Of a DNA stretch of 51,543 nt, positions 22,573-51,543 are shown one piece after another. Each line of letters starts with the position of its first letter. The stretch's first letter is position 1. The notes beneath the pieces are model-generated. The model saw nothing but the letters and a program-made list of their open reading frames with translations, was not told the DNA's origin and made no database searches. The stretch spans positions 1 through 51,543 of the IMG/VR virus record IMGVR_UViG_3300024054_000001. The stretch is one strand, 5' to 3'. The position numbers and the translations under genes are program-made. The stretch is from a virus.

Positions 22573-23892
22573 TCATTTCACGACCCGGCGCCGCGTTCGC
22601 TGCTTCACATCTGCTACAGCGGCTCTCGTCTCACGTGGTTTCGCCAACGGCGACGCAGGCTTGGGCAGCCAGATCGCGCGACTTTTAATCCGTTGGTCCA
22701 GGGTTCGATCCCCTGAGGTCCCACTGTTTTTCTCGGCGTTTCCAGCTTCCGTCAGTCCAGGGAGTCCATGGAGTGCTGCCGAGTCCACCGAGACTGCTAC
22801 ACCGGCGCTACAGTCGATCGTCGCAGCGAGTCGTGACGCGAGCGCGTCGGTCGACAGTCGCGCGTAGACGAGTTGCAGCATCGTCGTCGTGCGGTGTCCC
22901 ATGACGGGTGCGATCAACTCGAGCGGCGCGCCCGCGTGACGCAGCCAGGTCGCGCACGTGCGTCGCAGGTCGTTCGGTGTGCACCGCGTGATCGCCGCGT
23001 CCGCGCACTCGGCGCGATCGCACTGCCAGTGCTTCGCGATCGCGGCAGGGCATCGACGCGCGACGCATCCCGCACGCCGACACGCGCGCTCGAGGTCGCG
23101 CATCGGGTTGGACCACGAGCGGAAGAGCTGGGGTGCACGGCCGCCGGCATGCTCAAGCGCGAACGCGAGCATCGCGGACTGCTCGGGTGACACGATCGGA
23201 ACCTCGCGGTCCGACAGCTCGGTCTTCGTGCCGCGGAGGTGCACGCGATCGCCGCGGGCGTCGCCGCGCTCGGCTCGACACGTCTCGCCCCACCGTGCCG
23301 ACGTCGCGAGGATGAACGCCACGCGCGCGGCTCGGTCGGGCTCGAGGGCGCCGAGAAGTCTCTGGGCCTCGGCGAGCGTGAGCGCGCGCGTCCGTGGACG
23401 GTAGCCGCTCTCGACACGCGCCGGCATCACCGCGTCGATCGCGCCCGACCAGGTCCCGCGTCGCAGCGCCAAGCGCAGCGCCGACCGCAGTGTCGTCAGC
23501 TCCTTCGCGATCGTGTGCTCGCTCGTGCGCTCGCGACGTCGCTGCGACAGGTAGCCGTCGATCGTCGCTGCGTCGAGTTGCGCGGCCGGAAGGTCCCCGC
23601 CGAGCACGCGGAGCCACTGAGCGGCGCAGCCAGCGTAGAACTTCACCGTGGCGTGACTGCGGACGCCAGCGACGGCCTGCTCGTGTCGTGCATCGACGAG
23701 GGTCTGCAGGAGCGTTGCTAGGGTCGTCGACCGCCGCGCTGCGCGGGCCGGATCTTGGGCGGCTCGTTCGAGCCCACGAGCCGCAGACTCGGCCGCTCGT
23801 CGATCATGGCAGCGGGTCGAGCGGCACTGCCGCGCGCCCGACGCGTCGTAGAACCAACACCACCAGACCGAACCTCGGCGATAGAGCCGCAT
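22573..23892 (-). CDS. int: Tyrosine-recombinase integrase with attP inside its 3' coding end
   Basis: This 439-residue protein starts at the ATG at 23892, preceded by GAGGAGG at a 7-nt spacing. The longer reading upstream lacks a ribosome site. N-terminus RLYRRGSVWWCWFYDASG resembles arm-type DNA-binding starts. Catalytic features are R200 (SARWGE), K223 (GTKTE), R310 (PNDLRRTCATW), H333 (MGH) and Y343 (LVYARL). The box II His of HxxR is Asn307 here. Residues 390-404 are encoded by the tRNA-like attP core, and residues 405-439 lie beyond it. Integration therefore changes the C-terminus, as known for phage Mx8 IntP. It is last in the leftward operon. Confidence 0.92.
   Translation of the reverse strand: MRLYRRGSVWWCWFYDASGARQCRSTRCHDRRAAESAARGLERAAQDPARAARRSTTLATLLQTLVDARHEQAVAGVRSHATVKFYAGCAAQWLRVLGGDLPAAQLDAATIDGYLSQRRRERTSEHTIAKELTTLRSALRLALRRGTWSGAIDAVMPARVESGYRPRTRALTLAEAQRLLGALEPDRAARVAFILATSARWGETCRAERGDARGDRVHLRGTKTELSDREVPIVSPEQSAMLAFALEHAGGRAPQLFRSWSNPMRDLERACRRAGCVARRCPAAIAKHWQCDRAECADAAITRCTPNDLRRTCATWLRHAGAPLELIAPVMGHRTTTMLQLVYARLSTDALASRLAATIDCSAGVAVSVDSAALHGLPGLTEAGNAEKNSGTSGDRTLDQRIKSRAIWLPKPASPLAKPRETRAAVADVKQRTRRRVVK
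22682..22723 (+). other. attP: attP core: 3' half of tRNA-Lys (anticodon TTT)
   Basis: From the anticodon loop onward the sequence forms a tRNA 3' half: loop CTTTTAA (22682-22688), stem TCCGT, 5-nt variable loop TGGTC, T-arm CAGGG-TTCGATC-CCCTG (perfect 5 bp), acceptor AGGTCCC and discriminator A at 22723. No CCA is encoded, and the 5' half is missing. The base upstream (CGCGA) does not pair with the anticodon stem, so similarity begins at the anticodon loop, typical for phage attP cores in tRNA genes. It lies inside the integrase coding sequence. Confidence 0.88.
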
Positions 23893-26020: not shown

Positions 26021-26492
26021 CGGAACGCCTCGATCGCGAAACGCGTCCATCTCGCCGGGCGCGCTGGTACTCTGCCGAGAGGCCCGCATCCCCCAGCATC
26101 CGCATCACGCTCGCCGGGCCTGCGAGCCCGAGCGTCTGAGCCGCGCGAGTAAGATTCCACGCGTGATGCTCGAGCACGGCGCGCAGAACGCTGGCTCGCA
26201 GGACTCTTGAAACACCGTCGCTCCATCGGCTGACGAAGCTTGCGCCGACGGGCGGCCGCAGAACGCGTTTGCGGTGACCGCCGACCACGATCACGCCAGA
26301 GCGACGTGCCGCAAGGTATTCGCTCTTCAGACCGAGGATCGTGATCTCCCGGAGCACGCCTGCCGCGCCCGAGAGTTTCAGGAGTTCGGCGGCGTGCGTG
26401 AGATTCCATTCGGTCGCGATGAGGACGTCGAGCAGCATCGCCCTGCGAAGCTCCCTGTGCGCGTCGTTCGAGATCTGGATGAGCGGGAACAT
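26007..26492 (-). CDS. Protein with two Fis-type HTH repeats
   Basis: This 161-residue protein contains two copies of the same helical unit: LDVLIATEWNLTHAAELLKL and LRAVLEHHAWNLTRAAQTLGL. Each is followed by a G-A/P-x-x-V-h-R-x-h-x-x-h-G-L segment and a SEY/AEY ending. Each looks like the Fis/NtrC helix-turn-helix in which W-N-x-T-x-A-A-x-x-L is the key phrase. An internal duplication is clear. It starts at ATG 26492, overlapping the ParB-like stop by 1 nt. It is probably a DNA-binding regulator. Confidence 0.65.
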   Translation of the reverse strand: MFPLIQISNDAHRELRRAMLLDVLIATEWNLTHAAELLKLSGAAGVLREITILGLKSEYLAARRSGVIVVGGHRKRVLRPPVGASFVSRWSDGVSRVLRASVLRAVLEHHAWNLTRAAQTLGLAGPASVMRMLGDAGLSAEYQRARRDGRVSRSRRSDGRL

Positions 26493-28219
26493 CACTCCGC
26501 CTCGCCCTCGCACGCCGAGCACACATCGGCTGCGATCCACGAACACGCTTCCCCCTGCTTGGACACGCACGGCGTCGTGTCGGTGCACCCGCAATAGCCG
26601 CACGTGCGGACTTTCGCCGTCTTCGCCGCAGTCGGCTTCTTCGTGGTCTTGTTCGCCGGCGGCTTCGGCTTCTTCTTCGCGGCCGCCTTGGACTTCGCCT
26701 CGTCGGCGACCTGCTTGCGCGCCTCATCGAGCTTCACGCCGAACAGCGCGCACGCCGCGCCGAACGCGCTCCCGTTGTTGGCCTTCGCGGAATTCCACGG
26801 GCCTGCCTTGCGCGAGATCGCCAGCTCGAGCACGAGTGCCCGCAGCTCGCCGCCCTTGAGCCGCTGCAACTCGGCGTTGAGCGCCTTCTCCGCCGGGTCG
26901 CGCTGGTAGCCCTTCGCCTTCGGGATCTCGATCGCACGCCGCCGGCAGACTTCCTTGTGCGTGTCGTTCCAGCTCGTCTCGAGGATCCCCTGGCCGAGCA
27001 CTCGCCAGAACGCGTCGGAGGGCTCGCGCTTCTCGCACGCGCGGACGATGCCGGCGAGCGCGATCGAGAGTGCCAGGTTCTCCGCCCGAGCCTTCTGCTG
27101 CCGGCGCTTCTGGTCGTCGGCGAAGGTGTTGGCCTTGTTCTTCGGCAGCAGCTTGTTCGCGTCGGTCTGCCTGACCAACTCGTGCACGCGGCCGCTCGAG
27201 TCGCGCGCGATCGTCACGGGCGGCAGCTGCCCCTTGAGGATCTGCCGGTACGTGCGCCGCTTGTTGTCGGCGTAGTCGGTCTGGTCCAGGTCGAGGAACC
27301 CGGACCTGCTCTCGAGTGACGAACTGTACGGGAAAGCCTTCTTCGCCTCCGCGTCGGAGAGTACCTTGAGACCCTTCGCGCGCGCCGCGTCCGCCTTCTT
27401 CGCCCACGCCGCGTCGCGCTTCGCGCCGAAGCACGCCGGATCGGTGCACGTGTCGGGGCTCTTCACGTCAGCGAACAGCTCGGCCTGGTTGCCCGTGCGC
27501 TTCGGGCACGTGGTGCACGCCCCAGCCTTCGGCACGAGCGTCCCGTCACCGCGGTCGAACGGAGCGTCTTTCAACCCGAGCAGGAAGCCCCTGTCGAGCA
27601 TCCGCCGCACCAGCCAGGTCGCTGGCGGGGTGACCGTGTCCCCGTCGACGTCGGTTTCCTCCTCGATCGCATCGAGCAGCCGCTGCTGCAGCTCGGGCGT
27701 CGGTAGGCGCGCGACCATCAACGCCGTCGCCGGCGTCAGCCACCCCTCGTAGAACGCCTTGCGCGCGGGCTTGGACAGCGCGCAGAGCTTCATCCGCGCG
27801 TAGACCGTCGACGGCGCCTTGCCGACCTTCGCCGCGATCTCCTCGACCGACAGGCGGTGCTTCGTGTGCAGGACCTCGTAGCCTTCGGCCTCCTCGAGCG
27901 GGTGGATCTCGATGCGCTTCGAGTTCTCCACGAGTTGCATCTCGAGAGCTTCCTGATCGGAGAGCTTCCGGACGGTCGCGAGCAGCGACTTCAGTCCTGC
28001 CACCTGCGCCGCCCGAAACCGGCAATGGCCGAACACGATCTCGTAGCCCTCGCCCGACACGGGCTCGAGACGCACGAGGATTGGCTGCAACTGCCCGTGC
28101 TGTTTCAGGTCGGCCGCAAGCTCGGCGATCGCGGCCGCGGGGAACGTCTTGCGTGGATTGAAGGGCGACTCGACCAGCGCGGTGAGCGGGATCTCTTGGT
28201 ACGGCGACGGTGCAGTCAT
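26492..28219 (-). CDS. ParB/Spo0J-family protein with C-terminal Cys cluster
   Basis: This 575-residue protein starts with a ParB N-terminal domain: IPLTALVESPFNPRKTF, then a helix, and GHCRFRAAQVAGL (the G-x-R/C-R-x-R-A CTP-binding box). A KorB-type HTH region follows (RLSVEEIAAKVGKAPSTVYARMKL, residues about 130-160). The middle is long and includes a Cys cluster (CTTCPKRTG...CTDPACFGAK, about residues 230-260). The C-terminus has Lys-rich linkers and a final CGYCGCTDTTPC...C...CSAC zinc-like knot. No ParA is encoded here, so a plasmid-partition role is doubtful. Similar solitary phage ParB-like proteins act in regulation or as nucleases. Call is sure at family level only. Confidence 0.8.
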   Translation of the reverse strand: MTAPSPYQEIPLTALVESPFNPRKTFPAAAIAELAADLKQHGQLQPILVRLEPVSGEGYEIVFGHCRFRAAQVAGLKSLLATVRKLSDQEALEMQLVENSKRIEIHPLEEAEGYEVLHTKHRLSVEEIAAKVGKAPSTVYARMKLCALSKPARKAFYEGWLTPATALMVARLPTPELQQRLLDAIEEETDVDGDTVTPPATWLVRRMLDRGFLLGLKDAPFDRGDGTLVPKAGACTTCPKRTGNQAELFADVKSPDTCTDPACFGAKRDAAWAKKADAARAKGLKVLSDAEAKKAFPYSSSLESRSGFLDLDQTDYADNKRRTYRQILKGQLPPVTIARDSSGRVHELVRQTDANKLLPKNKANTFADDQKRRQQKARAENLALSIALAGIVRACEKREPSDAFWRVLGQGILETSWNDTHKEVCRRRAIEIPKAKGYQRDPAEKALNAELQRLKGGELRALVLELAISRKAGPWNSAKANNGSAFGAACALFGVKLDEARKQVADEAKSKAAAKKKPKPPANKTTKKPTAAKTAKVRTCGYCGCTDTTPCVSKQGEACSWIAADVCSACEGEAE

Positions 28220-28563: not shown

Positions 28564-29309
28564 GTCGCGGCCCCGCTGGCGACGTCGCCCTTCGGCGCCA
28601 CGGCGTGCACGGTGCACTCGAGCCCGAAGCGCTTCGCCATGTTCATGAGCGACTTGGCGTTCAGCCAGGCCATCGGGTTGCTCTCGATGTACGCCTCGCC
28701 GCCGCCGGCGGCCCAGTAGAACGGGTACTGCGTGAGCTTCGAGCGCTTCGCCTGCGGCAGCGCTTCCCACTGCTCGCGCGGCACGTGCAGCACCACCGTC
28801 GTGCTGTTCGGGAGCTTCGCACCTCGCTTCTTTTTCTCCGCCGGCGCCGGGTCTCCGGCCGCGCCTTCCTGTTCGACGACGTCGTCGTCGGCATCCTCGT
28901 CCTCGGTCTCTTCTCCCGCCGTCACGGCCATGTCGGCGACGACGGGCTGCCCGGCGAGGTCGAGTTCGCCTTGGCGCTCCTCGATCGTCATCGCGCGTTC
29001 GCTCACCACCTCGCCCGTGTCGAGCCGGACCATCTCGATCCGGTTGCCCGTGTCGATGCGCCGTTCGACGACTGGCACTTCGCGCTCCTCGGTGCCCGAG
29101 GCGATCGCGCGCCGCAGCTGCGCGATCTCGGCATCGATCTGCTCGAGCTGCTCCTTGTACTCGGAGGCCTTCTCCTTGCGCTCGTCGTCGACCCGCTCTC
29201 GCTTGTCCATCTTGCCGGCGAGTCGGCCGCCGCGCTCGAGCAGTTCGTCCGTCGTCAGCCTGCACGCGAGCAAGCGTTTCTTGTGTCCCTCGTCCATCAC
29301 AGTCATCAC
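28560..29309 (-). CDS. Coiled-coil protein with acidic linker
   Basis: This 249-residue protein starts with a long coiled coil (residues 15-75, KMDKRERVDDERKEKASEYKEQLEQIDAEIAQLRRAI). It continues with an acidic low-complexity linker (EETEDEDADDD) and ends with a small folded domain (YPFYWAAGGGEAYIESNPMAWLNAKSLMNMAKRFGL). It sits between the exonuclease and the ParB-like gene in the recombination part of the operon. Role is unknown. Confidence 0.58.
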   Translation of the reverse strand: MMTVMDEGHKKRLLACRLTTDELLERGGRLAGKMDKRERVDDERKEKASEYKEQLEQIDAEIAQLRRAIASGTEEREVPVVERRIDTGNRIEMVRLDTGEVVSERAMTIEERQGELDLAGQPVVADMAVTAGEETEDEDADDDVVEQEGAAGDPAPAEKKKRGAKLPNSTTVVLHVPREQWEALPQAKRSKLTQYPFYWAAGGGEAYIESNPMAWLNAKSLMNMAKRFGLECTVHAVAPKGDVASGAAT

Positions 29310-29977
29310 AGTCCTCCCTTCGGATCCATCAACCGGGCTTCAGGCCGGAGGCGTTCGAACAGCGGCCGCAGCACGGCGACATCGCGCGCGCAGTACTCCG
29401 CGATCTCGACGAGGCGCTCCTCGCGCCAGAGCTGCTCGACCTGGTTGCCGGCGACGCCGGCGGCCTTCGGCGACTCGATCCCGACCGACCGGCACATGCA
29501 GTCGAGCGACACGCGCCGCGTGTTCCCGAACGCCGTGACCACTTCGAGCAGATCGCAGTGCTCCGCGAAGCTGTACCGGTAGGGCAGCAGGTTCCGGGTC
29601 GGCGGAACGTTCGCGATGATCGATCGCGTTCGCAGGAACGGCGCGTCGAAGCCCCGGCTGTTCCACCCGATGATCCGGCGGTAGCGAGCAGCGATCGACC
29701 ACCAGCGCTCGAGCAGCGCCCTCTCGTCGCCCACCCACTCGATGAGGCTGTTCGTCGCCTCCACCGGCTGCCGCGCTGCCACGATCACGCGCACGAAGCC
29801 CTGCTCTTCCGCCCAGCCGATGCAGGCGACGCGGCCGGCGAACGGTGAGAGGGCCGCAGTGTCGGCCGTCGCGATCGCGGGGCTCCCGTTGCTGAGGTAT
29901 GCCCGACGCTCGTCGTCGAGCGCGTCCCAGACCGACACGGTCTCGACGTCGAAGAACAGGTTCTCCGGGCGGATCAC
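29306..29977 (-). CDS. 3'-5' exonuclease, DEDDy type
   Basis: This 223-residue protein shows the three exonuclease motifs: FDVET (Asp10/Glu12), GWNSRGFDAPFL (Asp in motif II), and YCARDV (Tyr-x3-Asp, motif III). That places it in the predicted 3'-5' exonuclease family related to the PolB proofreading domain. The start is GTG at 29977, overlapping the Bet stop as GTGA. It is next to Bet, so it probably acts in phage recombination or end-processing, although most Bet/RecT partners are 5'-3' exonucleases. Confidence 0.82.
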   Translation of the reverse strand: MIRPENLFFDVETVSVWDALDDERRAYLSNGSPAIATADTAALSPFAGRVACIGWAEEQGFVRVIVAARQPVEATNSLIEWVGDERALLERWWSIAARYRRIIGWNSRGFDAPFLRTRSIIANVPPTRNLLPYRYSFAEHCDLLEVVTAFGNTRRVSLDCMCRSVGIESPKAAGVAGNQVEQLWREERLVEIAEYCARDVAVLRPLFERLRPEARLMDPKGGL

Positions 29978-31110
29978 TGCGCACCGCCCTTCGTCGCGCG
30001 CTCGCCCTTGCGCGAGGCCCGTTGCTCGGCGTGCTTCGCGATGTCTCGGTCGATCGCGTCCTGCAACTCGTTGTGCTGCACCTCGTCGACCAGCCCGCGC
30101 TCGAGGGCGTCGGCGACGGCGCCGCGCAGTTCCTCGAGGTCCACGGGCTTGGTCGCCTTCACGAGCCCATCGCGCAACGCCTGCAGCGCGCCCGCCCGGT
30201 CCTCGTCTGTGATCGGCTTCGGCTCGGCCGGCGCCGGCGGATCGCTGTCGGTCGCGCCGGGCCCAGCCTCCTGCTCGGTCGGCGGATCGCCAGGGCGATC
30301 GCTCAATCCCCATGCAGCGTTCTCGCCCGCGGCTTCAGTCGCCGGCTCTGCCTTCGCGCGCAGCGCGTCGTATCGCGCCTTGATCGCGCGCCGGGCGGCC
30401 GCCTTCTCGGGCTGCGACAGGTCGGCCTCCTCGAGGTCACGCCGGAGGGCCTGCAGCAGGTCGAGGGAGTTCGCGCTCGATGCCGCTTCGAGCATGTGCA
30501 CGAGTGCCGGGCTCTGGGCGTTCGACGGCTTCGCCTTCGTCGCCGGCGCCGGCGTGGGCTTTGCCTCGAGGACCTCCGCGACGGGAAGCTCGTCCGTCGT
30601 GTAGAGGTCGCCGCAGTCTTGCGGGAACGCCTTCCGGATGCCGAGGGCCTCGGCACACTTCGCCAGCATCAGCAGGGGCTTCTCGGCCCACATGCGCGTC
30701 AGCCGGTCGCCCTTGTACTGGGCGTACTCGTCCCAGTGCGCGATCCCTACGAAGGGCCGGGAGATGTCGCGGCGGTAGACGCGGACCTTGCAGCAGATCA
30801 CCTGCTGTCGACGGTCGTACTCGTACTCGGGCTCGTCCTGGCCGGCGTACAGGCCCGTCCGTTCGGCGATCGCCCGCAAGCCATCGATACCGACTTGGAC
30901 CGTCCAGCGCACGCCGCCGTCTTGGTCGCGTCGCGAGACGAAGTGGCACTGCCCGAGGAACGGGTCGAGCTGCCGCCGCTCGGCGACCGAGATCAACGCG
31001 AGGAACTCTTCCTCGGATGCCCGCGGCGCGTAGATGCGCCGAATCAGAGTCTTCTGGTCCTGCGTGAACACGGGCACGGTCGTCGACCGTGCGATCTGCT
31101 GCTGCTCCAT
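29974..31110 (-). CDS. bet: Bet-type single-strand annealing protein
   Basis: This 378-residue protein matches the lambda Bet / RecT-like annealing family. Seen signatures are TLIRRIYAPRASEEEFLALI, RRQLDPFLGQCHFVSRRDQDGG, TVQVGIDGLRAIAERTGLYAGQDEP, YRRDISRPFVGIAHWDEYAQY, and MWAEKPLLMLAKCAEALGIRKAFPQDCGDLYTTDEL. The family pairs complementary single strands in phage recombination. Residues 185-378 are an unusually long, charged C-terminal extension. GGAG and AGGGAC elements precede the ATG. It is followed at once by the exonuclease gene. Confidence 0.9.
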   Translation of the reverse strand: MEQQQIARSTTVPVFTQDQKTLIRRIYAPRASEEEFLALISVAERRQLDPFLGQCHFVSRRDQDGGVRWTVQVGIDGLRAIAERTGLYAGQDEPEYEYDRRQQVICCKVRVYRRDISRPFVGIAHWDEYAQYKGDRLTRMWAEKPLLMLAKCAEALGIRKAFPQDCGDLYTTDELPVAEVLEAKPTPAPATKAKPSNAQSPALVHMLEAASSANSLDLLQALRRDLEEADLSQPEKAAARRAIKARYDALRAKAEPATEAAGENAAWGLSDRPGDPPTEQEAGPGATDSDPPAPAEPKPITDEDRAGALQALRDGLVKATKPVDLEELRGAVADALERGLVDEVQHNELQDAIDRDIAKHAEQRASRKGERATKGGAQ

Positions 31111-31131
31111 CGTTGTCCCTCCGTCGTTGAT

Positions 31132-31350
31132 TCAGTTCGGTGCCCAGACCCACCGTTCGCGCCCGTCGTCGGCGCGCTCGAGCCGAAAACCCGCGGCGCG
31201 CAGCGCGTGCCTGCAGATCGCGCTCAGCCGGGGCGAGACGACGACCAGCCACGCCGGCCGTCGGCCGATCACGCACCCGCGCACGCCCGCGCGCTCGACG
31301 TCGAATGCCACCGCGGCCGCGGCCCACACGTGCGGCGGGAACGTGCTCAT
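31132..31350 (-). CDS. Small early protein
   Basis: This 72-residue protein (MSTFPPHVWAAAAVAFDVER) has no recognised family. It overlaps the upstream gene by 4 nt and ends 22 nt before the Bet ATG. Confidence 0.5.
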   Translation of the reverse strand: MSTFPPHVWAAAAVAFDVERAGVRGCVIGRRPAWLVVVSPRLSAICRHALRAAGFRLERADDGRERWVWAPN

Positions 31351-31604
31351 CGCACAGCACTCGCCTGCTCGAGGCGCCGAAGTGGTGCCCGGTCGAGATG
31401 CTGCGCCCGGGGGGATGACGCAGGTTCGACCGACCGGGCACCACTTCGAAGCCCGAAGCAACGATTCAATGCATCGCGGACGACGGCGACGCAAACCACG
31501 CGCGCCCGCGTCGTGCCACATCGAGGGCACTCCGCGAACTCCAGCGCCTCGTCGATGAACCACCCGACCCGGGCCAGGTTCGGCAGCGTGGGCCATTCGA
31601 TCAC
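31347..31604 (-). CDS. Small protein carrying a long inverted repeat in its gene
   Basis: This 85-residue protein starts with GTG at 31604, overlapping the upstream stop (GTGA). It has a CPRCG pair in its first half (LEFAECPRCGTTRARVV). Its C-terminal 30 residues are encoded by a region containing an 18-bp perfect inverted repeat (31378-31395 and 31431-31448). Function is unknown. Confidence 0.5.
   Translation of the reverse strand: MIEWPTLPNLARVGWFIDEALEFAECPRCGTTRARVVCVAVVRDALNRCFGLRSGARSVEPASSPRAQHLDRAPLRRLEQASAVR
31378..31448. repeat. Perfect 18-bp inverted repeat
   Basis: The arm CGAAGTGGTGCCCGGTCG (31378-31395) is the exact reverse complement of 31431-31448. The arms are separated by a 35-nt loop. 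In RNA this would be a very stable hairpin inside the coding region of the 85-residue protein. It may be a transcription/translation control element or the trace of an inserted repeat. Confidence 0.9.
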
Positions 31605-31909
31605 GTGCCCGCCGGCGGCGAGGCAGGCGTCGACGGCGGTGCCGATCCGGCAAGGCGCATCGCCCGCTTCCGCCCCGCCGGCGTGAGCGCCCAGCGCGCT
31701 CCCTCGCGTTCCAGCAGCAGCTTCGCGAGCAGGCCCCTCGCCCCGAAGCACTTCGAGTCCACCTTGATCGCCGACGGCAGCGCGTAGCCCGTCAACCCGA
31801 ACGCCTCCGGGAACTTTCGCCACGCCGCGACGACCAGGTCCTCGCGCGTGAACGTTGGCGGCAGATCCAGCGCCGCAATCAAGATCAGGTCCCGGTGCGG
31901 CCATGTCAC
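31601..31909 (-). CDS. Small early protein with winged-helix-like core
   Basis: This 102-residue protein starts with GTG at 31909 (overlap GTGA). The sequence TFTREDLVVAAWRKFPEAFGL, then DSKCFGARGLLAKLLLEREGARWALTPAGRKRA, resembles a small winged-helix domain of the MarR/phage type. Function is unknown. Confidence 0.55.
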   Translation of the reverse strand: MTWPHRDLILIAALDLPPTFTREDLVVAAWRKFPEAFGLTGYALPSAIKVDSKCFGARGLLAKLLLEREGARWALTPAGRKRAMRLAGSAPPSTPASPPAGT

Positions 31910-32253
31910 GCCTCGCTCCGGGTGAAGATCGACCGCACGTGATCCCACCACTCCGGGTGCTGCTCGAGCCAGCTCGCGATGTCCGGGGGAGTTGTGCTCG
32001 CCAGCGCGTACCAGGTGTCCAACTCGATCTGGTCGACGCCCAGCGCAGTCGCGAGGTGCGCCAGCGGAACCCTCGTCGTCGCGTGCCGCCCCGCCTCGAC
32101 GTCCTCGAGGTCGCGCTCCATCCCGCACCACGACCGCCCCTGCTCGCGCAGTCGCGCGGCCAACTGCCGAACGCTCAGGCCCGCCAGCGCCCTGCGCTGC
32201 CCGATCAGCCGCCCGAGTTGGATCATCCGCGCATCGCGCTCCGCCGAACTCAC
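31906..32253 (-). CDS. XRE-family HTH regulator
   Basis: This 115-residue protein starts with GTG at 32253. Residues 10-70 read as a lambda-repressor-type HTH: LGRLIGQRRALAGLSVRQLAARL, then a turn and MERDLEDVEAGRHATTRVPLAHLATALGV. The C-terminal part is a short helical domain (DIASWLEQHPEWWDHV). It is the second gene of the leftward operon, so it may fine-tune early transcription. Confidence 0.72.
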   Translation of the reverse strand: MSSAERDARMIQLGRLIGQRRALAGLSVRQLAARLREQGRSWCGMERDLEDVEAGRHATTRVPLAHLATALGVDQIELDTWYALASTTPPDIASWLEQHPEWWDHVRSIFTRSEA

Positions 32254-32531
32254 GACACGACCTCGGGGTCGACGATCAGCTCGGCCGCGTAGCCTCGCTG
32301 CGCCATCTCGCACTGCAACTCCTGCGCGAAAGCGCCCACGTGCTGGGCAGCGCAACGGAGCGTCAGCGTCAGCGAAGCACCAGCTGCCCGGATCTCGTCC
32401 CGCCCGATCCGGAGCGCCACAGCGCGCAATGACTCGATCAACGCGTCCTCCGCCGCGTCGAAGTTCTCCTCCGCCGAAGCCTCCCACCGCAGCCTGATCA
32501 CCCCCGTGCCCTGCGTCACCGTCACGTCCAT
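32250..32531 (-). CDS. First protein of the leftward operon
   Basis: This 93-residue protein starts at ATG 32531, directly at the expected start of transcription from the PL-like promoter (7 nt after the -10 box), so the message is probably leaderless. A TTG at 32567 is the -35 box, not a start. The protein is mixed (MDVTVTQGTGVIRLRWEASAEE start), with a long helical middle. No family is recognised. It could be an early regulator by position. Confidence 0.62.
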   Translation of the reverse strand: MDVTVTQGTGVIRLRWEASAEENFDAAEDALIESLRAVALRIGRDEIRAAGASLTLTLRCAAQHVGAFAQELQCEMAQRGYAAELIVDPEVVS

Positions 32532-32567
32532 GGCGACACTTGTACTCGTGGGTACAAGCGTCGTCAA
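32532..32567 (-). promoter_or_regulatory. PL-like leftward promoter, leaderless
   Basis: On the minus strand: TTGACG (32567-32562), 17-nt spacer, TACAAG (32544-32539), 7 nt TGTCGCC, then ATG at 32531. The transcript should begin at or next to the A of the ATG. The spacer and -10 hold a perfect palindrome. The arrangement is shared base for base in its key elements with the rightward promoter at 35511. Confidence 0.82.
32539..32558. promoter_or_regulatory. Operator palindrome CTTGTAC-N6-GTACAAG
   Basis: Two 7-bp arms, CTTGTAC (32539-32545) and GTACAAG (32552-32558), are perfectly inverted with a 6-bp gap. The palindrome spans the spacer and -10 of the leftward promoter, where a bound repressor would block RNA polymerase. 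The PR-like promoter holds one perfect and one weak half-site. Confidence 0.8.
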
Positions 32568-32692
32568 TAGGAGTCACACGGAATTCGTCGACAGCCCGGT
32601 GAGCTCCTCGGCGGCTCGCCCGGACGGGCGATTCCCTGTCGGGCGCTCTCGGGAGACGATCGAACCGTCGGATCACCGATCGGAGAAGAGGG

Positions 32693-33007
32693 ATGGCGAC
32701 GGAGTTCGAAATCGTTCGGGATCATCTGCACTACATCGAGCGATCGCAGCGGCGCCTGGTCACGCTTGCCCTCGTCGCCATGCTTTTGGCGGTCGGAGCG
32801 ATCGCTTGGCACTTTCTCGCGCCGGCAGAGGCCCAGCGGGTGCGCTGGGAATATCGGATCGAGTTCTTCCTCGAAGGCGCGGTGGCGACGGGACTCAACA
32901 CCGCCGGCGAAAGCGGATGGGAAGTCGTCGACGTGCGTCGCGCGCGAACGGGTTCGGGAGAATCCGGCGAGTGGGGCAGCGAAGTCGTATTCAGGCGGCG
33001 CCGGTGA
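32693..33007 (+). CDS. Membrane-anchored DUF4177-like protein
   Basis: This 104-residue protein has one transmembrane segment (residues 22-42, LVTLALVAMLLAVGAIAWHFL) and an outer domain RWEYRIEFFLEGAVATGLNTAGESGWEVVDV. That matches the DUF4177 pattern (aromatic strand, LN-x-x-G-x-x-GWE). A GGAGAAGAGGG ribosome site lies just upstream. It is read to the right inside the immunity region, against the repressor operon, and is probably expressed in lysogens or as a moron. Function is unknown. Confidence 0.62.
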   Translation: MATEFEIVRDHLHYIERSQRRLVTLALVAMLLAVGAIAWHFLAPAEAQRVRWEYRIEFFLEGAVATGLNTAGESGWEVVDVRRARTGSGESGEWGSEVVFRRRR

Positions 33008-33038
33008 GCGTCAGCCGGCGATGCCGCAGGAGAGACGA

Positions 33039-33260
33039 ATGATTTCAGGACACGTGCGATTCATTCTGGCAACGATCTTCGCGACGCTCCTCGCGGTGCT
33101 GTCGTCCGTCCCGGAAGCATCGGCATCCGAGCGGGATGCGTCCGGCGATGGCGGCAGCGAGTCACGTGTCGAGAAGACACGCCGCGTGCGGGTGCGGGGC
33201 TACACCCGGCGCAACGGGACCTACGTTCGGCCGTACACTCGCCGCGTGCGCCGGCGCTGA
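33039..33260 (+). CDS. Small secreted basic protein
   Basis: This 73-residue protein has a clear signal peptide (residues 1-30, HVRFILATIFATLLAVLSSVPEASA) and a very basic tail containing RGYTRRNGTYVRPYTRR. That motif is found near the ends of several bacterial periplasmic proteins. AGGAGA lies 7 nt before the ATG. It follows the DUF4177-like gene and may share its transcript. Role is unknown. Confidence 0.58.
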   Translation: MISGHVRFILATIFATLLAVLSSVPEASASERDASGDGGSESRVEKTRRVRVRGYTRRNGTYVRPYTRRVRRR

Positions 33261-33265
33261 CTTGC

Positions 33266-33838
33266 CTACAGCGCGTCCCTCGGCGCCACGACGAACCTGC
33301 GCGCGTCCGTCAGCGGCACGACGCGGGCGACGTCCTCGCCGCCGTGGCGCGCCCATCGACGTAGCGTGCCGTCGTCGACACCGATCTCACCGCGACGAAC
33401 GACGCGCCCGGACCACACGACGGCGAGTTGCAGATCGAACACCTCGCCGGCGCGCAACGCGACGATGGTCTCAGTCGTGCGGAACACTCGAGCGAGAGCC
33501 GGCAGCCTGAACGGGTGCTCGTAGAACGCACGACGGAACTCGCGCCGCGGGCAGATGATCGCGGCCGCGACCGCGTTGACGAGCTGCTCATCGTGCGGCC
33601 TTGCGACGCCGGCGACGTCGAGCGCCAAGTGCCCCAGTTCATGCGCGCAGCGCCACGAGACGGCCTCGGGTGCGCCGCGCATCGACACGCGCAGGACGTC
33701 GTCGAGCTGCCCCTGGCAGCCGGCGCCGACGCGTCGCGAGAGTCTCAGGCCGAGGCCGGCGGCCAGTTCTGCAGGGTCGTGCGTGTCGAGCCTGGCGATC
33801 GCGCGCAGCTCATCGGCGAGGGAATCGGCGGTGTCCAT
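33266..33838 (-). CDS. ImmA/IrrE-family HELGH metallopeptidase
   Basis: This 190-residue protein carries the zinc motif HELGH at residues 66-70, followed by LALDVAGVARPHDEQLVNAVAAAIICPRREFRRAF, typical of the ImmA/IrrE family. In ICEBs1-type elements ImmA cleaves the phage-like repressor ImmR and triggers induction. A cleavage-prone repressor without its own peptidase is encoded at 34790-35452, so the pairing is likely. I chose ATG 33838; the longer reading adds 23 residues with no ribosome site. A weak TCCACA-N17-TACTCT-N6-ATG can be drawn upstream. The palindrome at 33922 lies about 85 bp upstream. Confidence 0.82.
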   Translation of the reverse strand: MDTADSLADELRAIARLDTHDPAELAAGLGLRLSRRVGAGCQGQLDDVLRVSMRGAPEAVSWRCAHELGHLALDVAGVARPHDEQLVNAVAAAIICPRREFRRAFYEHPFRLPALARVFRTTETIVALRAGEVFDLQLAVVWSGRVVRRGEIGVDDGTLRRWARHGGEDVARVVPLTDARRFVVAPRDAL

Positions 33839-33921
33839 CGCCCGAGAGTACGGACGGACGTGGTCGGTGTGGAGCGCGGGTCGCGGTCCCGGGGTGCGCG
33901 AAAACACCGGGCGGCGAGGGG

Positions 33922-33939
33922 TGTGGATACGTATCCACA
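33922..33939. promoter_or_regulatory. 18-bp perfect palindrome (DnaA-box-like halves)
   Basis: TGTGGATACGTATCCACA is perfectly self-complementary. Each 9-bp half matches the DnaA box TTATCCACA at 8 of 9 bases. It lies in a 146-bp noncoding stretch between the small membrane protein gene and the ImmA gene. It may be an operator for ImmA or a DnaA/replication-related site. Confidence 0.78.
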
Positions 33940-33984
33940 GGCAGAGCGTAGCGCGGGCGAGGGGTTGGGCGGGGACAGGGAATG

Positions 33985-34194
33985 TCAGGGCAATTCGCGA
34001 TGCTTCCGGCGCTGCCTAAGATCGTCAACATCGTGCAGGAAATCCCAACCGATGATCGCCGTTACGAGCAGCGCTCCGACGGCGAGGGTCGAGCCGAACC
34101 ACACAGGCCGAATCCAATGCCGTCCGATGACCATCGCCGAGCTCAGAAGCATGCCGTAGACGAGCACCCACGCTGGCGTTCGAAGGTTCTTCAT
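33985..34194 (-). CDS. Small two-TM membrane protein
   Basis: This 69-residue protein has two hydrophobic segments (PAWVLVYGMLLSSAMVIG and STLAVGALLVTAIIGWDFL). It overlaps the previous gene by 4 nt and is translated after the repressor and a larger membrane protein, so it is likely made in lysogens. A superinfection-exclusion role is possible but not shown. Confidence 0.58.
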   Translation of the reverse strand: MKNLRTPAWVLVYGMLLSSAMVIGRHWIRPVWFGSTLAVGALLVTAIIGWDFLHDVDDLRQRRKHRELP

Positions 34195-34793
34195 GGCTTG
34201 ACTTTCCTGGACTCGATCGTATGCACGTCGGCTTCGTCGCGCAACTCGGCCACTGTTGCAGGGACCGATACCGCCGCTACTCGGACCGCTGCGGGTGAGT
34301 CGCGACGATCCAAGAGCACGCGGACGCGTCGCAGCAAGTCGTCGAGTGAATCGGCCATCACGCGAACGTCTCCGCTCCGGACCAGCGTGCGTAGCGCCGC
34401 CCAAACGAAGGGCAGCGCAGGCCACCAGCCGATCAGCGCGGCGTCGATTCCATGCGCTTTCACCGCCGACGCAAAGAGCCCGAGCAGCGTCGTGAGCGTC
34501 GCTCCTGCGATCGTCACCGATCGTGCCGCGCGCCGTCGGAGGCTGTCTCGGGTCATGGTCATGTCACCGAGCGACGCCGGTAGGAGCGCGCGATCGAGGC
34601 CCTGGAGTCCGTGCGCGTCGAGTTCTTGATGTGCGACGTGGATCGCTGACAGGAAATCCGCGGTCGTGAGCTGATCGCTCCTGGTTGCGAGCGCGTCGAA
34701 AGACTCGGCCGCCGTTCGATATGGGTGTTTGATGCGAGATGCCTCGGAAAGCGCGTCGCGGACAATCTTCGCGGCCTCTTTCTCTGCGCTCAT
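34191..34793 (-). CDS. Membrane protein encoded with the repressor
   Basis: This 200-residue protein has a helical N-terminus (SAEKEAAKIVRDALSEASRIK) and two hydrophobic segments near residues 88-135 (VTIAGATLTTLLGLFASAVKAHG and AALIGWWPALPFVWAAL). A basic/helical C-terminus follows. It overlaps the repressor stop by 4 nt, so it is co-translated with it. Possible superinfection exclusion or lysogen-specific function. No family is recognised. Confidence 0.6.
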   Translation of the reverse strand: MSAEKEAAKIVRDALSEASRIKHPYRTAAESFDALATRSDQLTTADFLSAIHVAHQELDAHGLQGLDRALLPASLGDMTMTRDSLRRRAARSVTIAGATLTTLLGLFASAVKAHGIDAALIGWWPALPFVWAALRTLVRSGDVRVMADSLDDLLRRVRVLLDRRDSPAAVRVAAVSVPATVAELRDEADVHTIESRKVKP

Positions 34794-35452
34794 CGCTTCC
34801 GCCCACCCTTCTTCCTCGCCGCCTCCAGCCTCTTTGCTCCCTCCGCCGGATCCGCGCCCGCTGCCCTCGCCTTCGCCTCGGTCTCGGCGTTCAGCTCGGT
34901 GTCGGCCTGGTCCGCCCGCTCGGTGATCCCGGCCCTGTAGGGCCCGACGGCGACTTGCGCGACCACGTCCCTCGGCGTTGCCTTCCCCGCCCGCCGAACG
35001 GCCCTGGACGCCACGAGGAGATCATGTCCGAGCCGTTCCTGGTCCACACCCTCCCGCGTCAGCCTGGCGACCTCCCGGGCCGCGTCACGTGCGAGGACGA
35101 GGTCGTCGGTCGTGAAGGCCGCTGCGTCCCGTGCGAGGGCTCGAGCGAACGCCAGGGCCACGGCCTGCTCGAGAACCGTCGCGTCCCCGGATGGGGGTTC
35201 GGGGTCGCGGTGGACGACGGTGCCCGCGGGTTCGGGGGTGCCTGGGTCGCCCTTCCCGTCCGCCAGCCACTCGATCGAAACTCCGGTCGCGCGCGCGATC
35301 TTCGTGAGACTGCCGCCCCGCGAGTTGTCGCCGCCACGCTTCAGCATCTTCCCGATGCTGCCCTCGGCCAAGCCGGCTCTCCGACTCAGTTCGCGCTCGG
35401 AGATGTCGAGTCGCGTGAGCAGCACCCGAATGCGGTCCGCAACCGTGCCCAT
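34790..35452 (-). CDS. Phage repressor with N-terminal HTH and no peptidase domain
   Basis: This 220-residue protein starts with an XRE-type HTH (residues 5-62): MGTVADRIRVLLTRLDISERELSRRAGLAEGSIGKMLKRGG, then LTKIARATGVSIEWLADG. The remaining 150 residues are a helical, charged tail with no S24/LexA-like Ser-Lys site. It is therefore not a RecA-autocleaved repressor. The ATG at 35452 is favoured because a PRM-like promoter ends 7 nt upstream; a longer reading to 35548 begins inside the PR operator. Directly divergent from the Cro-like gene. Confidence 0.8.
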   Translation of the reverse strand: MGTVADRIRVLLTRLDISERELSRRAGLAEGSIGKMLKRGGDNSRGGSLTKIARATGVSIEWLADGKGDPGTPEPAGTVVHRDPEPPSGDATVLEQAVALAFARALARDAAAFTTDDLVLARDAAREVARLTREGVDQERLGHDLLVASRAVRRAGKATPRDVVAQVAVGPYRAGITERADQADTELNAETEAKARAAGADPAEGAKRLEAARKKGGRKR

Positions 35453-35488
35453 CGGCGAGACGGTATCGATCCCGCCGACAGCTGTCAC
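35453..35488 (-). promoter_or_regulatory. PRM-like promoter of the repressor, leaderless candidate
   Basis: On the minus strand: GTGACA (35488-35483), 17-nt spacer, TACCGT (35465-35460), 7 nt, then ATG 35452. The spacing is the same as in the two outward promoters (N17 and N7), although the -10 box is weak. It would make a leaderless repressor mRNA, as lambda PRM does. Supported by spacing rather than by strong hexamers. Confidence 0.5.
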
Positions 35489-35510
35489 CAGCGTCCGAGG
35501 CGCAAAGCGG

Positions 35511-35546
35511 TTGACGCCAATTGTCGTCGCGGGTACAAGTGTCGCC
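35511..35546 (+). promoter_or_regulatory. PR-like rightward promoter, leaderless
   Basis: TTGACG (35511-35516), 17-nt spacer, TACAAG (35534-35539), 7 nt TGTCGCC, then ATG at 35547. The 17-base string from GTACAAG to the ATG is identical to the leftward promoter (32545-32529). An imperfect operator (one half-site GTACAAG, one weak TTGT-containing half) overlaps the spacer and -10. Confidence 0.82.
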
Positions 35547-35846
35547 ATGAATTCATCCCTCGGTTCGCGTCTGGCCCGGTTGCGGGACCTCGCAGGCGTA
35601 TCCCAGCGAGCCCTCGGATCGGCCGCCGGTCTCGATCCGAGCCACGTGCGTCTGATCGAGACAGGTGCGCGTGAAAACCTCCACCCCGACACGATCGCCT
35701 CGCTCGCAAGCGCCCTTGGCGTGACGACGGACTGGCTGATCCTCGGGACGGGGCCCGAGCCGACGGTGGAGCAGGTGCGGGCAGCGGTTGCGGCCGCGCG
35801 CGAGCGCCTGGCAGCGGCGCCAAAGGTCACCGGGACGGAGGGCTGA
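35547..35846 (+). CDS. Cro-like XRE-family regulator
   Basis: This 99-residue protein has an HTH domain from residue 5: LGSRLARLRDLAGVSQRALGSAAGLDPSHVRLIETGARENLHPDTIASLASALGVTTDWLILG. This is the XRE/Cro pattern. It is the first gene after the PR-like promoter and starts at the transcript's first codon. It is divergent from the repressor gene, as Cro is. The N-terminus reads MNSSLGS because the longer upstream ORF is not translated from this message. Confidence 0.8.
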   Translation: MNSSLGSRLARLRDLAGVSQRALGSAAGLDPSHVRLIETGARENLHPDTIASLASALGVTTDWLILGTGPEPTVEQVRAAVAAARERLAAAPKVTGTEG

Positions 35847-35849
35847 TCG

Positions 35850-36068
35850 GTGGACGACGACGTCGCCACGATCCGGCGTGACGGGCACCTCACGCACTGC
35901 ACGGTGCTCGAGCAGCCGCCGTTCGGCGACCGCGTCGTCGTCGACCACTGCGGCGTGCGGCGCGTGTTCAAGCGCTCGCAGCGCTGGGTCGACCTCGACG
36001 GCTTCGAGCTGCTCGCACCACACACGACGACGGTCGGCACCGACGCAACGCGCAGGGAGGGCCAATGA
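35850..36068 (+). CDS. Small early protein
   Basis: This 72-residue protein starts with GTG at 35850, 3 nt after the Cro-like stop. It is small and mixed (MDDDVATIRRDGHLTHCTVLEQPPFGDRVVVDHCG), with two Cys/His positions that do not form a clear zinc motif. It overlaps the next gene by 4 nt. Confidence 0.52.
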   Translation: MDDDVATIRRDGHLTHCTVLEQPPFGDRVVVDHCGVRRVFKRSQRWVDLDGFELLAPHTTTVGTDATRREGQ

Positions 36069-36544
36069 GCGACGGAGAACGCACTGCACGCCGGAGCAGC
36101 CGGCGAGACGCCGCGAAGGCCGCGGCCGCGCGCGCATTCGATCGCACGATCCGGGGGCGTGACTTGACGAACGACGCCGCCGGCGAGGTCCTGGGCGTGA
36201 ACGCCACGCGGGCGCGCCGGTTGCGTTCGGACGATCGAGACGACCTCGACGTTTCCCCCGGCACGCACGACCTGCTGCTCGTCGATCGAGAGACCTACGA
36301 GCGCTGGCTGCTCGAGCTGGGACTCGCGCGCGAGTCGATGCACGCGCCGGCGGCGCTCGAGAAGCTCGAGCCGCAGCTCGCTCGCGCGCTGCAGCGATGT
36401 GCTCGCGTGTCGCTGCGCGGCGCGGAGGCCCTCGAGGACGGCGTCGTCACACCCGACGAGATCCCGACGCTGCTCGAGGACGCGAAGGCCCAGTTGATCG
36501 AGTTGGGCCGGCTGGTCGAGGCGCTGCAGCGGAGGATGCGATGA
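36065..36544 (+). CDS. Small early protein
   Basis: This 159-residue protein is mainly helical. The N-terminal half is basic (ARRSSRRDAAKAAAARAFD) and the C-terminus is long helices (TLLEDAKAQLIELGRLVEALQRRM). No family is recognised. It overlaps neighbours by 4 nt. Confidence 0.52.
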   Translation: MSDGERTARRSSRRDAAKAAAARAFDRTIRGRDLTNDAAGEVLGVNATRARRLRSDDRDDLDVSPGTHDLLLVDRETYERWLLELGLARESMHAPAALEKLEPQLARALQRCARVSLRGAEALEDGVVTPDEIPTLLEDAKAQLIELGRLVEALQRRMR

Positions 36545-37212
36545 TCGATCCGGCCGCCTACGTCGTCTGCGAACTCGACGGCAGCATAGTGCACACGACG
36601 ACCGACAGCGAGGACGCCACGCGCGTGCTCTCGCGCGATCCCGCACGCAGGTGCGTCGTGCGCAACGGCGCTGTGCTGCGCTGGGGCGCCGACATCAAGC
36701 CAGGGGAACGCACGAGCGCGGAGGCTTTCCTGCGCCGCGCAAGGCTGATCACAGGCCGAGCGTCCACGTCACCTGAGGAGACCCGTGCTCGCATCGCGCA
36801 TAGCGACGCGAAGCCCGACAACGTCACGCCGGCGCCGCCGGCCGAGGAGGACAACTTGCCATCGACGAACATCTCGCACGAGACCTGCCGGTTCGAAGGC
36901 TGCACATCCGAGATCGGGATGATCCGCTCGGACACTCGCAAGGAGTGGCAGGTCTTCTGTCGCAAGCATCGCAGCACGATGCGCAACCTCGAGCGTAACC
37001 GTTCGACGGCGGTGAAGACAAAGACCACGAGCAAGGCTCCGAAGCCGAAGCCTGCGTCGAAGCAGGCGACGCCGACGAAGCCAAAGAAGCCCACGCAGCG
37101 CGAGCCTCGCGTGGTCGACATCTTCGACGAGATGCGTCGCTGCGTCGCCGTGGTCGACCAGCTCGGCGGCATCGAGAAGGCGGAACAGCTTGCGTCGGTG
37201 ATCGGCCGATGA
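36541..37212 (+). CDS. Early protein with a zinc-finger-like Cys/His cluster
   Basis: This 223-residue protein has a small N-terminal domain, a central C-x4-C...C-x2-H cluster (CRFEGCTSEIG...WQVFCRKH, about residues 116-146), and a long Lys/Pro/Thr linker (TKTTSKAPKPKPASKQATPT). Its C-terminal helix (FDEMRRCVAVVDQLGGIEKAEQLAS) may bind a partner. A role in nucleic acid binding is plausible. No family is certain. Confidence 0.55.
   Translation: MIDPAAYVVCELDGSIVHTTTDSEDATRVLSRDPARRCVVRNGAVLRWGADIKPGERTSAEAFLRRARLITGRASTSPEETRARIAHSDAKPDNVTPAPPAEEDNLPSTNISHETCRFEGCTSEIGMIRSDTRKEWQVFCRKHRSTMRNLERNRSTAVKTKTTSKAPKPKPASKQATPTKPKKPTQREPRVVDIFDEMRRCVAVVDQLGGIEKAEQLASVIGR

Positions 37213-37806: not shown

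Positions 37807-37810
<4 letters not shown>
37448..37810 (+). CDS. Small early protein, winged-helix-like
   Basis: This 120-residue protein (VSLGAHRDVRRLSPAGKRVYRTLLLRAGHQVPAKSELRQLPDLERGLEELLRVGLVV) reads like a small winged-helix domain. A basic helical tail follows. It directly precedes the replication gene and overlaps it by 4 nt. A DNA-binding or replication-helper role is inference. Confidence 0.55.
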
Positions 37811-38899
<1,089 letters not shown>

Positions 38900-38913
<14 letters not shown>

Positions 38914-40345
38914 GAACCACACGCCCGAGCACATCGAGCAGGCCATCCTCGGCGGTCTCATCGCGGGCATGCGCGATGGTCACGGCGTGCGAACGTTCGA
39001 CCTGGTGCACGGCATCCTCCGCGCAGAGGACTTCGCCGGCGCAGGGCACAGGCAGATCTTCGAAGCGTGTGAACGGATCAATCTTCGCGGCCTCGATGCA
39101 TCGCTGTTTGCGGTCGCGCACGAGTTGCGCGAGATGCAACTCCTGAATGTCGTAGGCGGCGAACCGAAACTGCAGCAGCTCATCGATTGCTGGCTGACGA
39201 ACGAACGCATCGAACTGCACGCATACGCGTTGCGCCGCGGCGCGCGAGCACGTCGGATCATCGCCGACTGCGAACGCGTCGCGCGGCTTGGTCGAGCGCC
39301 GGTCTCGACCGAGGACTTTCTCTCGCGTGCGTCCCAAGTCCTCGCGGACGCGCTGCACGAGGACGCGAGCGAGGCCCGCAGCCAGGCCGTCGGCGAGGGC
39401 ATTCACGACGTCGTGGTCGAGGCCGACCAGGGCATCAAGCGCGAACCGCTCAAGTGCGGAATCGAGGCGGTCGACAAACTCGCCGTGTTGAACTCGAACG
39501 CCTTCGTGGTTCTCGGTGCGCGCCCCAGTGTCGGCAAGACTGCGCTCGGCACGCAGATCGGCGTGTGTGTCGCCGCGATGAACCCAAACGCGCCCGTGCT
39601 GCTGCTCTCGCTCGAGATGCCATCGGCGGATATCTGGTCGCGACTTGCGTCTGCGGGAACGCGAATTCCCCACTCGCGAGTCCGCCATCGAGATCTCTCT
39701 CGGCAAGAGATCGAACAGGTGCGGCGCGTCGCCGAGGAGATGCGCTCCGTTCCGTTCCATTGCTACAGCGCTGGCGAAGGACGTCGACCACCGAGAATCG
39801 ATGAGATCGTCGCGTTCGCGCGTGCGTTCAAGCGACGGCAACGCGGGCTCGGAATGCTGATCGTCGACTACCTGCAAATCGTTCGCGGAGGTCGCGGCGA
39901 GTCGATGGAGAACCGGATCGCCGACATCTCGGCGACGCTGAAGTTGCTCGCGAACGAACTCAACTGCTGCGTGCTCGCGTTGTCGCAGCTCAATCGCGAC
40001 AACGAACGAGAGGGTCGCCGACCTACGGCCGCCGATCTTCGGTACTCGGGCGCGATCGAACAGGACGCCGACGCGATCGCGCTCCTGCATCGACCGGCAC
40101 AAGTGCCGCAGAGTCTATCGACAGACTCCCGAACGGATCACGAGGGCGTCGTGATCGAGCTGCTCGTGGTGAAGAACCGTCACGGTTCTCGAGGAAGGTC
40201 GGCGTTGTTCTTCCGCGAGGCGATCACTCACTTCGACGAGGCGCCCGCGGACATCAAGCCGATGAACGCCAAGAGCCCGCGGTACGGCGGCGGGCGGAAC
40301 GTTCCTGCGTCGCACGAGGAATCCGATGGAGAGCGGGCCGAATGA
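38900..40345 (+). CDS. dnaB: Replicative DnaB-type helicase
   Basis: This 481-residue protein has the DnaB layout. The N-terminal domain contains EHIEQAILGGLIAG, then FAGAGHRQIFEACERI and LNVVGGEPKLQQLI. Walker A is GARPSVGKT at residues 206-214, LLLSLEMPSADIWSRL is motif 1a/H1 region, and LIVDYLQIV is Walker B. SQLNRDNEREGRRPTAADLRYSGAIEQDADAI is the H4 region. GGAG precedes the ATG at 38900. It unwinds DNA at the replication fork, presumably loaded by the preceding protein. Confidence 0.92.
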
Positions 40346-51081: not shown

Positions 51082-51525
51082 ATGGCCCTGCGCGACAACC
51101 TGCTCCCGGTTGCGAACACGCTGCGCGCGAAGGCGGAAGCCTTCGGCGTGCGGCGATACTCGGTGACGGTGCGACAGCGCACCTGGTCGGGCGGACGTCC
51201 CGGCCTCGGCACGATGACGCCGACGGACCTGACGCTTTCGCCCCGTCCGCGCGTCCGGGCGGTCTCCTCGAGGGAGATCGCGGCTTCGGGCGGGACATTC
51301 ACGCAGGGCGACCTGCGCATCGGACCGATCACGCCGTCGAATGGCGCCGGCGTCGGCTACACCGCGGCCCAACTCGCGCCGGACGTCTCGAGTGCCAACG
51401 GCGACGTGATGTACGTTCTCGTCGGCGACGACGGCACGACCGTGGCGCGCCTCGTCGACCGGCCGAGCGTCGACCGGTCGCTCGGATGGTTCGTCGTGGT
51501 GCGCCCCACGCGCGAGACGCCCTGA
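51082..51525 (+). CDS. Head closure / neck protein
   Basis: This 147-residue protein lies between the connector and the gp10-like gene. It begins with helices (ALRDNLLPVANTLRAKAEAFG) and continues as beta strands (RYSVTVRQRTWSG and GDLRIGPITPSNGAG), ending with RSLGWFVVVRPTRE. The shape and place suit a head-completion (stopper) protein. No diagnostic motif is visible. Its end repeats at 1-109. Confidence 0.6.
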   Translation: MALRDNLLPVANTLRAKAEAFGVRRYSVTVRQRTWSGGRPGLGTMTPTDLTLSPRPRVRAVSSREIAASGGTFTQGDLRIGPITPSNGAGVGYTAAQLAPDVSSANGDVMYVLVGDDGTTVARLVDRPSVDRSLGWFVVVRPTRETP

Positions 51526-51543
51526 TGGGCACAGTCAACGTCC
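51417..51543. repeat. Terminal direct repeat, right copy
   Basis: Identical to bases 1-127. It spans the end of the head-closure gene and the first codons of the gp10-like gene. Confidence 0.95.
51525..51543 (+). CDS. 5' fragment of the gp10-like gene (continues at 109)
   Basis: These bases repeat the start of the gene at 109-675 (ATG overlapping TGA). They exist only because of the end overlap of the circular assembly. Confidence 0.9.

Follow-up and report, generated by a model that had tools for sequence, protein, structure and literature searches.

The virus genome held in IMG/VR record IMGVR_UViG_3300024054_000001 raises the question of whether a single repressor governs its two early operons, and whether both operons are expressed from mRNAs that start directly at the start codon. 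We analyzed the whole stretch of DNA, 51,543 nucleotides, hereafter the window. An initial annotation had described a motif, TTGACG-N17-TACAAG-N7-ATG, present twice with a shared string and, on the left, a perfect palindrome, and had taken it as the mark of a lambda-like switch. Direct reading confirmed this description: the motif has exactly two occurrences in the window, and they face outward. The left one is pL, from which the left early operon is predicted to be transcribed without a leader (32567-32529, minus strand; TTGACG ACGCTTGTACCCACGAG TACAAG TGTCGCC ATG). The right one is pR, its predicted leaderless counterpart for the right early operon (35511-35549, plus strand; TTGACG CCAATTGTCGTCGCGGG TACAAG TGTCGCC ATG). 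Each precedes the first gene of an operon, as had been proposed, and these operons make up the left and right early arms of a temperate phage that resembles lambda. We consider it likely, with a probability of about 0.7, that the region is a lambda-type switch in which pL, pR, and the promoter of cI (pRM), and probably that of immA, are leaderless and in which one repressor acts on both pL and pR.

The promoter pair and its operator

The two promoters have in common the 17-mer GTACAAGTGTCGCCATG, without a single difference, and their 39-mers agree at 31 of 39 positions. When 32500-35600 was searched blindly for repeats, the pair came out as both the longest inverted repeat (39 nt) and the longest direct repeat, as expected of two copies of a near-palindrome. 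The 60 nt that flank them on each side match at about background level only. Since the flanks of these two nearly identical units are unrelated, the units have been kept alike or have converged, and are not a copied block.

In a scan of both strands with a neutral E. coli-type sigma-70 weight matrix, pR ranked 7 and pL ranked 8 among 102,986 positions. The same scan found no other good promoter upstream of the pL gene or of cro, the first gene under pR. These results bear on one explanation of the likeness, namely chance or the recent duplication of one promoter without any shared function in control. Short perfect palindromes are indeed not rare on their own (P ~0.03 for arms of at least 7 in a 39-mer). 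Yet the similarity ends with the 39 nt, both copies stand exactly at the first genes of opposite arms, and they rank high both in the neutral scan and among the gene starts discussed below, which leaves this explanation very little credit.

The perfect palindrome of pL, CTTGTAC-N6-GTACAAG, lies at 32539-32558. At both promoters the -10 hexamer is inside the half-site GTACAAG of a palindrome that spans the spacer. The left site can be extended to GACRCTTGTAC-N6-GTACAAGYGTC, over the -10 and spacer of pL (OL, 32535-32562), where it matches the half-site consensus at 22 of 22 positions. The right site (OR, 35516-35543) joins a perfect half-site, GTACAAGTGTC, to a degenerate partner, for a score of 18/22 in which the TTGT-N10-ACAA core is kept; its three mismatches to the perfect pL palindrome all fall in one half. 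The best chance composite elsewhere in the window reaches 15/22, and the exact sequence GTACAAGYGTC occurs three times in 51.5 kb, always at the pL and pR sites. We propose that a sigma-70 promoter and an operator are fused at both places. A repressor bound to this palindrome would sit on both the spacer and the -10, and so exclude RNA polymerase and block pL and pR alike.

There is one recognizable operator per side, and multiple tandem operators were found on neither. The sole candidate for a second operator in the gap between cI and cro, GACAGCTGTC (35477-35486), was rejected, its score being by our estimate not clearly above chance.

Transcripts predicted to begin at the start codon

After TACAAG, both promoters continue with TGTCGCC-ATG, where the A of the ATG is the sole purine at the usual distance of a +1, so that the lytic mRNAs should begin at the start codon itself. 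In bacterial genomes, leaderless genes are customarily recognized by a -10 box some 12 bp ahead of the start codon, and genes marked in this way are commonest in Actinobacteria and Deinococcus-Thermus (PMC3160421). In the window, cro, the pL gene, cI, and immA all start with ATG, which lies 7 nt after the -10 in the first three and 6 nt after it in immA. None of the four has an effective Shine-Dalgarno sequence: pairing is weak at pR (-3.8 kcal/mol), pL (-2.5), cI (+0.3), and immA (-2.2), whereas many internal genes of the early operons are at -5 to -12 kcal/mol. The leaderless start that had been suggested for the two lytic operons is thus supported by sequence, and the geometry extends further than had been claimed: cI has the same promoter geometry as pL and pR, and immA probably does too. 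The predicted leaderless cI promoter, pRM, is GTGACA-N17-TACCGT-N7-ATG (35450-35488, minus strand; rank 51 in the matrix scan). The candidate leaderless promoter of immA is TCCACA-N17-TACTCT-N6-ATG (33836-33873, minus strand), the -35 element of which is weak. Through this spacing the lysogenic mRNA of cI, and less surely that of immA, would be leaderless as well.

To compare these genes with the rest of the window, we took each of 72 testable genes and scored its best sigma-70 promoter with a -10 ending 6-8 nt upstream of the start codon; the matrix had not been adjusted to fit pL and pR. The gene cro and the pL gene shared the top score of 10.4 bits, followed by cI in third place (7.5) and immA in fourth (7.0), such that all four top-ranked starts fall in the immunity region. 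Among 2,602 ATG or GTG codons that are not gene starts, the numbers scoring as high as cro, the pL gene, cI, and immA were 1, 1, 3, and 3, respectively.

Alternatively, pL and pR could be early promoters with operators whose mRNAs nevertheless carry leaders, transcription starting further upstream and the match close to the ATG being merely an operator. The identical 17-mer could persist as an operator half-site alone, and TACAAG is a poor -10, with a G where the conserved final T is expected; a strict consensus scan demanding that T found no promoter in 31000-37000. We find this unlikely, given the lack of another good promoter upstream of either gene, the ideal 17-nt spacer in both promoters, and the weak Shine-Dalgarno pairing. 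In addition, pRM shares the N17/N7 spacing without having this operator. A count of exactly three promoters in the window, obtained with a rule that allowed a final G only after the motif had been seen, was discarded in favor of the two neutral rankings.

The imperfect -10 also weighs against the leaderless switch that we favor, as do several other observations. pL and pR may be weak promoters, or may be read by a host sigma factor with different preferences. The operator of pR is half degenerate, with an intact right half and a left half matching at 7 of 11 positions. Protein and DNA searches returned no diverged copy of the switch in relatives, only an identical contig. The hint about the host comes from RecT alone, which suggests Myxococcota. 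Finally, in a distant prophage with a comparable promoter (L018, see below), the small gene that follows this promoter has no Pfam match.

The immunity genes and the two early arms

The genes cI and cro are divergent, with starts 95 bp apart, and encode CI-type and Cro-type helix-turn-helix (HTH) proteins between the two outward early operons. Cro (35547-35846, plus strand; 99 aa) matches HTH_31 (4.9e-12) and HTH_3 (4.7e-10), and its start at 35547 is favored because the HTH domain opens at residue 5. The CI-type repressor (34790-35452, minus strand; 220 aa) matches Phage_CI_repr (5.7e-5) and phrog_2328 (2.3e-13). A family search with E-values up to 0.01 gave HTH families only for CI, and no match to the S24 (LexA-like) self-cleavage domain. 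Further along the same strand, immA (33266-33838) encodes an ImmA/IrrE-like protein that matches Peptidase_M78 at 1.6e-5, above the family's cut-off. An M78-type metallopeptidase with an HExxH-like motif, here HELGH, is thus found near an HTH repressor, as in ImmR/ImmA systems. The lambda-like switch of the initial annotation stands as regards the early arms and the CI-type and Cro-type genes; the single good operator per side and the missing S24 match depart from it.

We suggest that a lysogenic module, made up of cI, the gene of the ImmA-like protease, and two orphan membrane-type genes, lies between the outward early promoters pL and pR, and that one HTH protein represses both promoters, most likely CI and possibly Cro. 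The palindrome could instead be the site of Cro, or of the HTH protein of the left operon (31906-32253), and serve the late autoregulatory shutdown of both arms. The gene cro lies directly under pR, the phage encodes several HTH proteins, and in lambda both oL and oR are targets of Cro. On the other hand, the sequence does not allow a choice between CI and Cro as the binder, and phages differ in this respect, since the Cro of PY54 binds the cI-side operator only (PMC4488713). We regard this possibility as doubtful; it changes the binder, leaves the leaderless architecture as it is, and overlaps with the explanation that we prefer.

A host regulator such as LexA could also bind the palindrome, so that the phage would be induced by the SOS response of its host. 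Some temperate phages do use host LexA, and a CI without an S24 match fits such a scheme. It is nevertheless improbable, as the site is confined to two phage early promoters and the encoded CI-type repressor and ImmA-like protease would suffice for immunity and induction. Under control by the phage repressor, induction would more likely proceed through the ImmA-like protease, in the fashion of ImmR/ImmA, than by self-cleavage of CI, because CI has no S24 domain match.

Between cI and immA lie two orphan genes (33985-34793) coupled translationally to cI by 4-bp overlaps. The first encodes a 200-aa protein, likely in the membrane, without family match (34191-34793, minus strand; overlapping the cI stop). 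The second encodes a 69-aa protein, also likely in the membrane (33985-34194, minus strand; overlapping the 200-aa orphan gene). Both are candidates for superinfection exclusion.

The window is a complete, previously undescribed temperate phage with a contractile tail. Its ends carry an exact direct repeat of 127 bases (1-127 and 51417-51543), and a second contig crosses the end junction, so that the map closes into a circle of 51,416 bp. Its gene content and order are lambda-like. The left arm runs through an orphan gene, an HTH protein, RecT, an exonuclease, a ParB-like protein, and an integrase, and the right arm through the Cro-type protein, a weakly CII-like protein, DnaD-like and DnaB-like proteins, and then terminase, portal, and capsid, after which come the tail sheath and baseplate genes on the circular map. 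The first gene of the left operon (32250-32531, minus strand; 93 aa), the orphan under pL, overlaps the next by 4 bp; the predicted structure of its product is too poor for use, with a pLDDT (predicted local distance difference test) of 57. The second encodes a weak XRE-type HTH match (31906-32253, minus strand; HTH_31 6.8e-5, under its cut-off). They are followed on the minus strand by the RecT-like annealing protein (29974-31110), the 3'-5' exonuclease (DNA_pol_B_exo2, 29306-29977), and, at the end of the arm, the tyrosine integrase (22573-23892). A 575-aa ParB-like protein is encoded at 26492-28219, adjoining the exonuclease and RecT. In the right arm, the DnaD-like helicase loader and the DnaB-like helicase occupy 37807-40345 (plus strand). 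An Rfam search of the window gave no match.

Relatives, known switches, and what the layout implies

The pR region was found again, at 100% identity, in one additional contig from another sample. Searches of IMG/VR with Cro, the pL gene product, CI, DnaB, and the capsid either found no match or returned nothing beyond this identical contig and distant HTH proteins. The pattern TTGAC-N17-GTACAAG-N7-ATG occurs in at least 118 contig stretches, and among the matches listed the sister contig is the sole evident relative. The extended operator, the shorter form of which the initial annotation had suggested looking for in related genomes, gave no match. The closest RecT proteins are 49-55% identical over the best segment and come from metagenome-assembled genomes (MAGs) of Myxococcota or delta-proteobacteria. 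When the phylum to which a Myxococcales MAG belongs was searched with the capsid (282 genomes), just two weak matches turned up, at 26% identity.

Comparable promoters recur in two distant prophages that share only RecT with the window. In L018, the promoter TTGACA-N17-TATGAT-N7-ATG leads into a small gene that is oriented divergently to a CI-type HTH gene. In L038, a prophage of an Eremiobacterota MAG, TTGACT-N17-TACGGT-N6-ATG (4616-4653) precedes a small gene with a weak HTH match, which has the same orientation relative to a CI-type HTH gene; a palindrome, ACCGTAC-TTTG-GTACGGT, lies over the -10. Both emerged when about 35 loci were scanned, and they therefore speak to the recurrence of the layout but not to how frequent it is. 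A strict scan found no such promoter at most Cro homologues among loci L004-L015, so the layout is not universal.

Some other elements were encountered on the way. In Meiothermus granaticius (L033), a leaderless-type promoter, TTGACA-N17-TATACT-N6-ATG at 17166 (minus strand), lies directly 5' of a 62-aa open reading frame (ORF), presumably HicA-like. A contig family unrelated to the window carries, before an ORF of about 55 aa (MKTIIFIL...), a near-identical element, TTGACATATATCGTACTCTAGCGTACAAGTCAATTTATG, in which TTGAC...GTCAA forms an inverted repeat near the ATG; the family comprises the viral contigs L040, L049, L050, L063, L065, L070, L075, L083, L092, L093, L107, L124, and L137. In L018, a phage contig, a run of 15-nt DNA repeats (7131-7799) encodes a pentapeptide-repeat-like protein.

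Among known systems, lambda has the same order (int, recombination, pL, lysogenic genes, cI, pRM/pR, cro, replication) and outward early promoters with a common operator sequence. Its cI message from pRM, a classical leaderless mRNA, has its predicted counterpart in the window. Unlike the window, lambda has three operators per side, a CI with the S24 domain, and no ImmA-like protease gene, and its N and cro mRNAs carry leaders, whereas pL and pR are here predicted to be leaderless. ICEBs1-type elements and Gram-positive prophages also have, in one immunity region, an HTH repressor (ImmR) and an M78-type metallopeptidase (ImmA). The window differs from them in being a high-GC lambda-like phage, with immA two genes away from cI and apparently under its own promoter; repressor cleavage is a putative function here.

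Leaderless mRNAs are known mainly for phage repressors, and for PY54 cro. In the immB region of the telomere phage PY54, cI and cro are divergent and both messages start at the AUG, as determined by rapid amplification of cDNA ends (RACE), while the single operator bound by Cro is on the side of cI (PMC4488713). The statement of the initial annotation that leaderless mRNAs are unusual for lytic operons was hence too strong. The likeness between PY54 and the window rests on the layout and on transcripts (by RACE in the former, predicted in the latter). The window adds a sequence repeated at two distant early promoters, a leaderless-type pL, and possibly a leaderless immA. In the paaR2/ydaS locus of the cryptic prophage CP-933P, CI-type and small HTH genes are divergent and 97 bp apart, and the CI-type paaR2 message, the only transcript of the locus so reported, is leaderless by RACE (PMC8630535); that locus, unlike the window, has a toxin-antitoxin operon attached. 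A leaderless pL, together with switch promoters that are all of one geometry, is unmatched in the literature that we searched.

If confirmed, the window would hold a lambda-type switch in which both lytic arms and the repressor are expressed without leaders, and it would become testable whether, under stress, leaderless translation tips the decision toward one outcome. A broader claim, that every promoter of the lysis-lysogeny switch is leaderless and that the fused design of operator, -10, and start codon is recurrent in unrelated phages of high-GC hosts, seems to us unlikely. Were it true, the whole decision would rest on leaderless translation and could shift with the state of the ribosomes and initiation factors of the host. 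The layout also provides a searchable signature for the immunity regions and operators of uncultivated phages: an operator half-site that contains the -10, with an ATG 6-7 nt after this -10.

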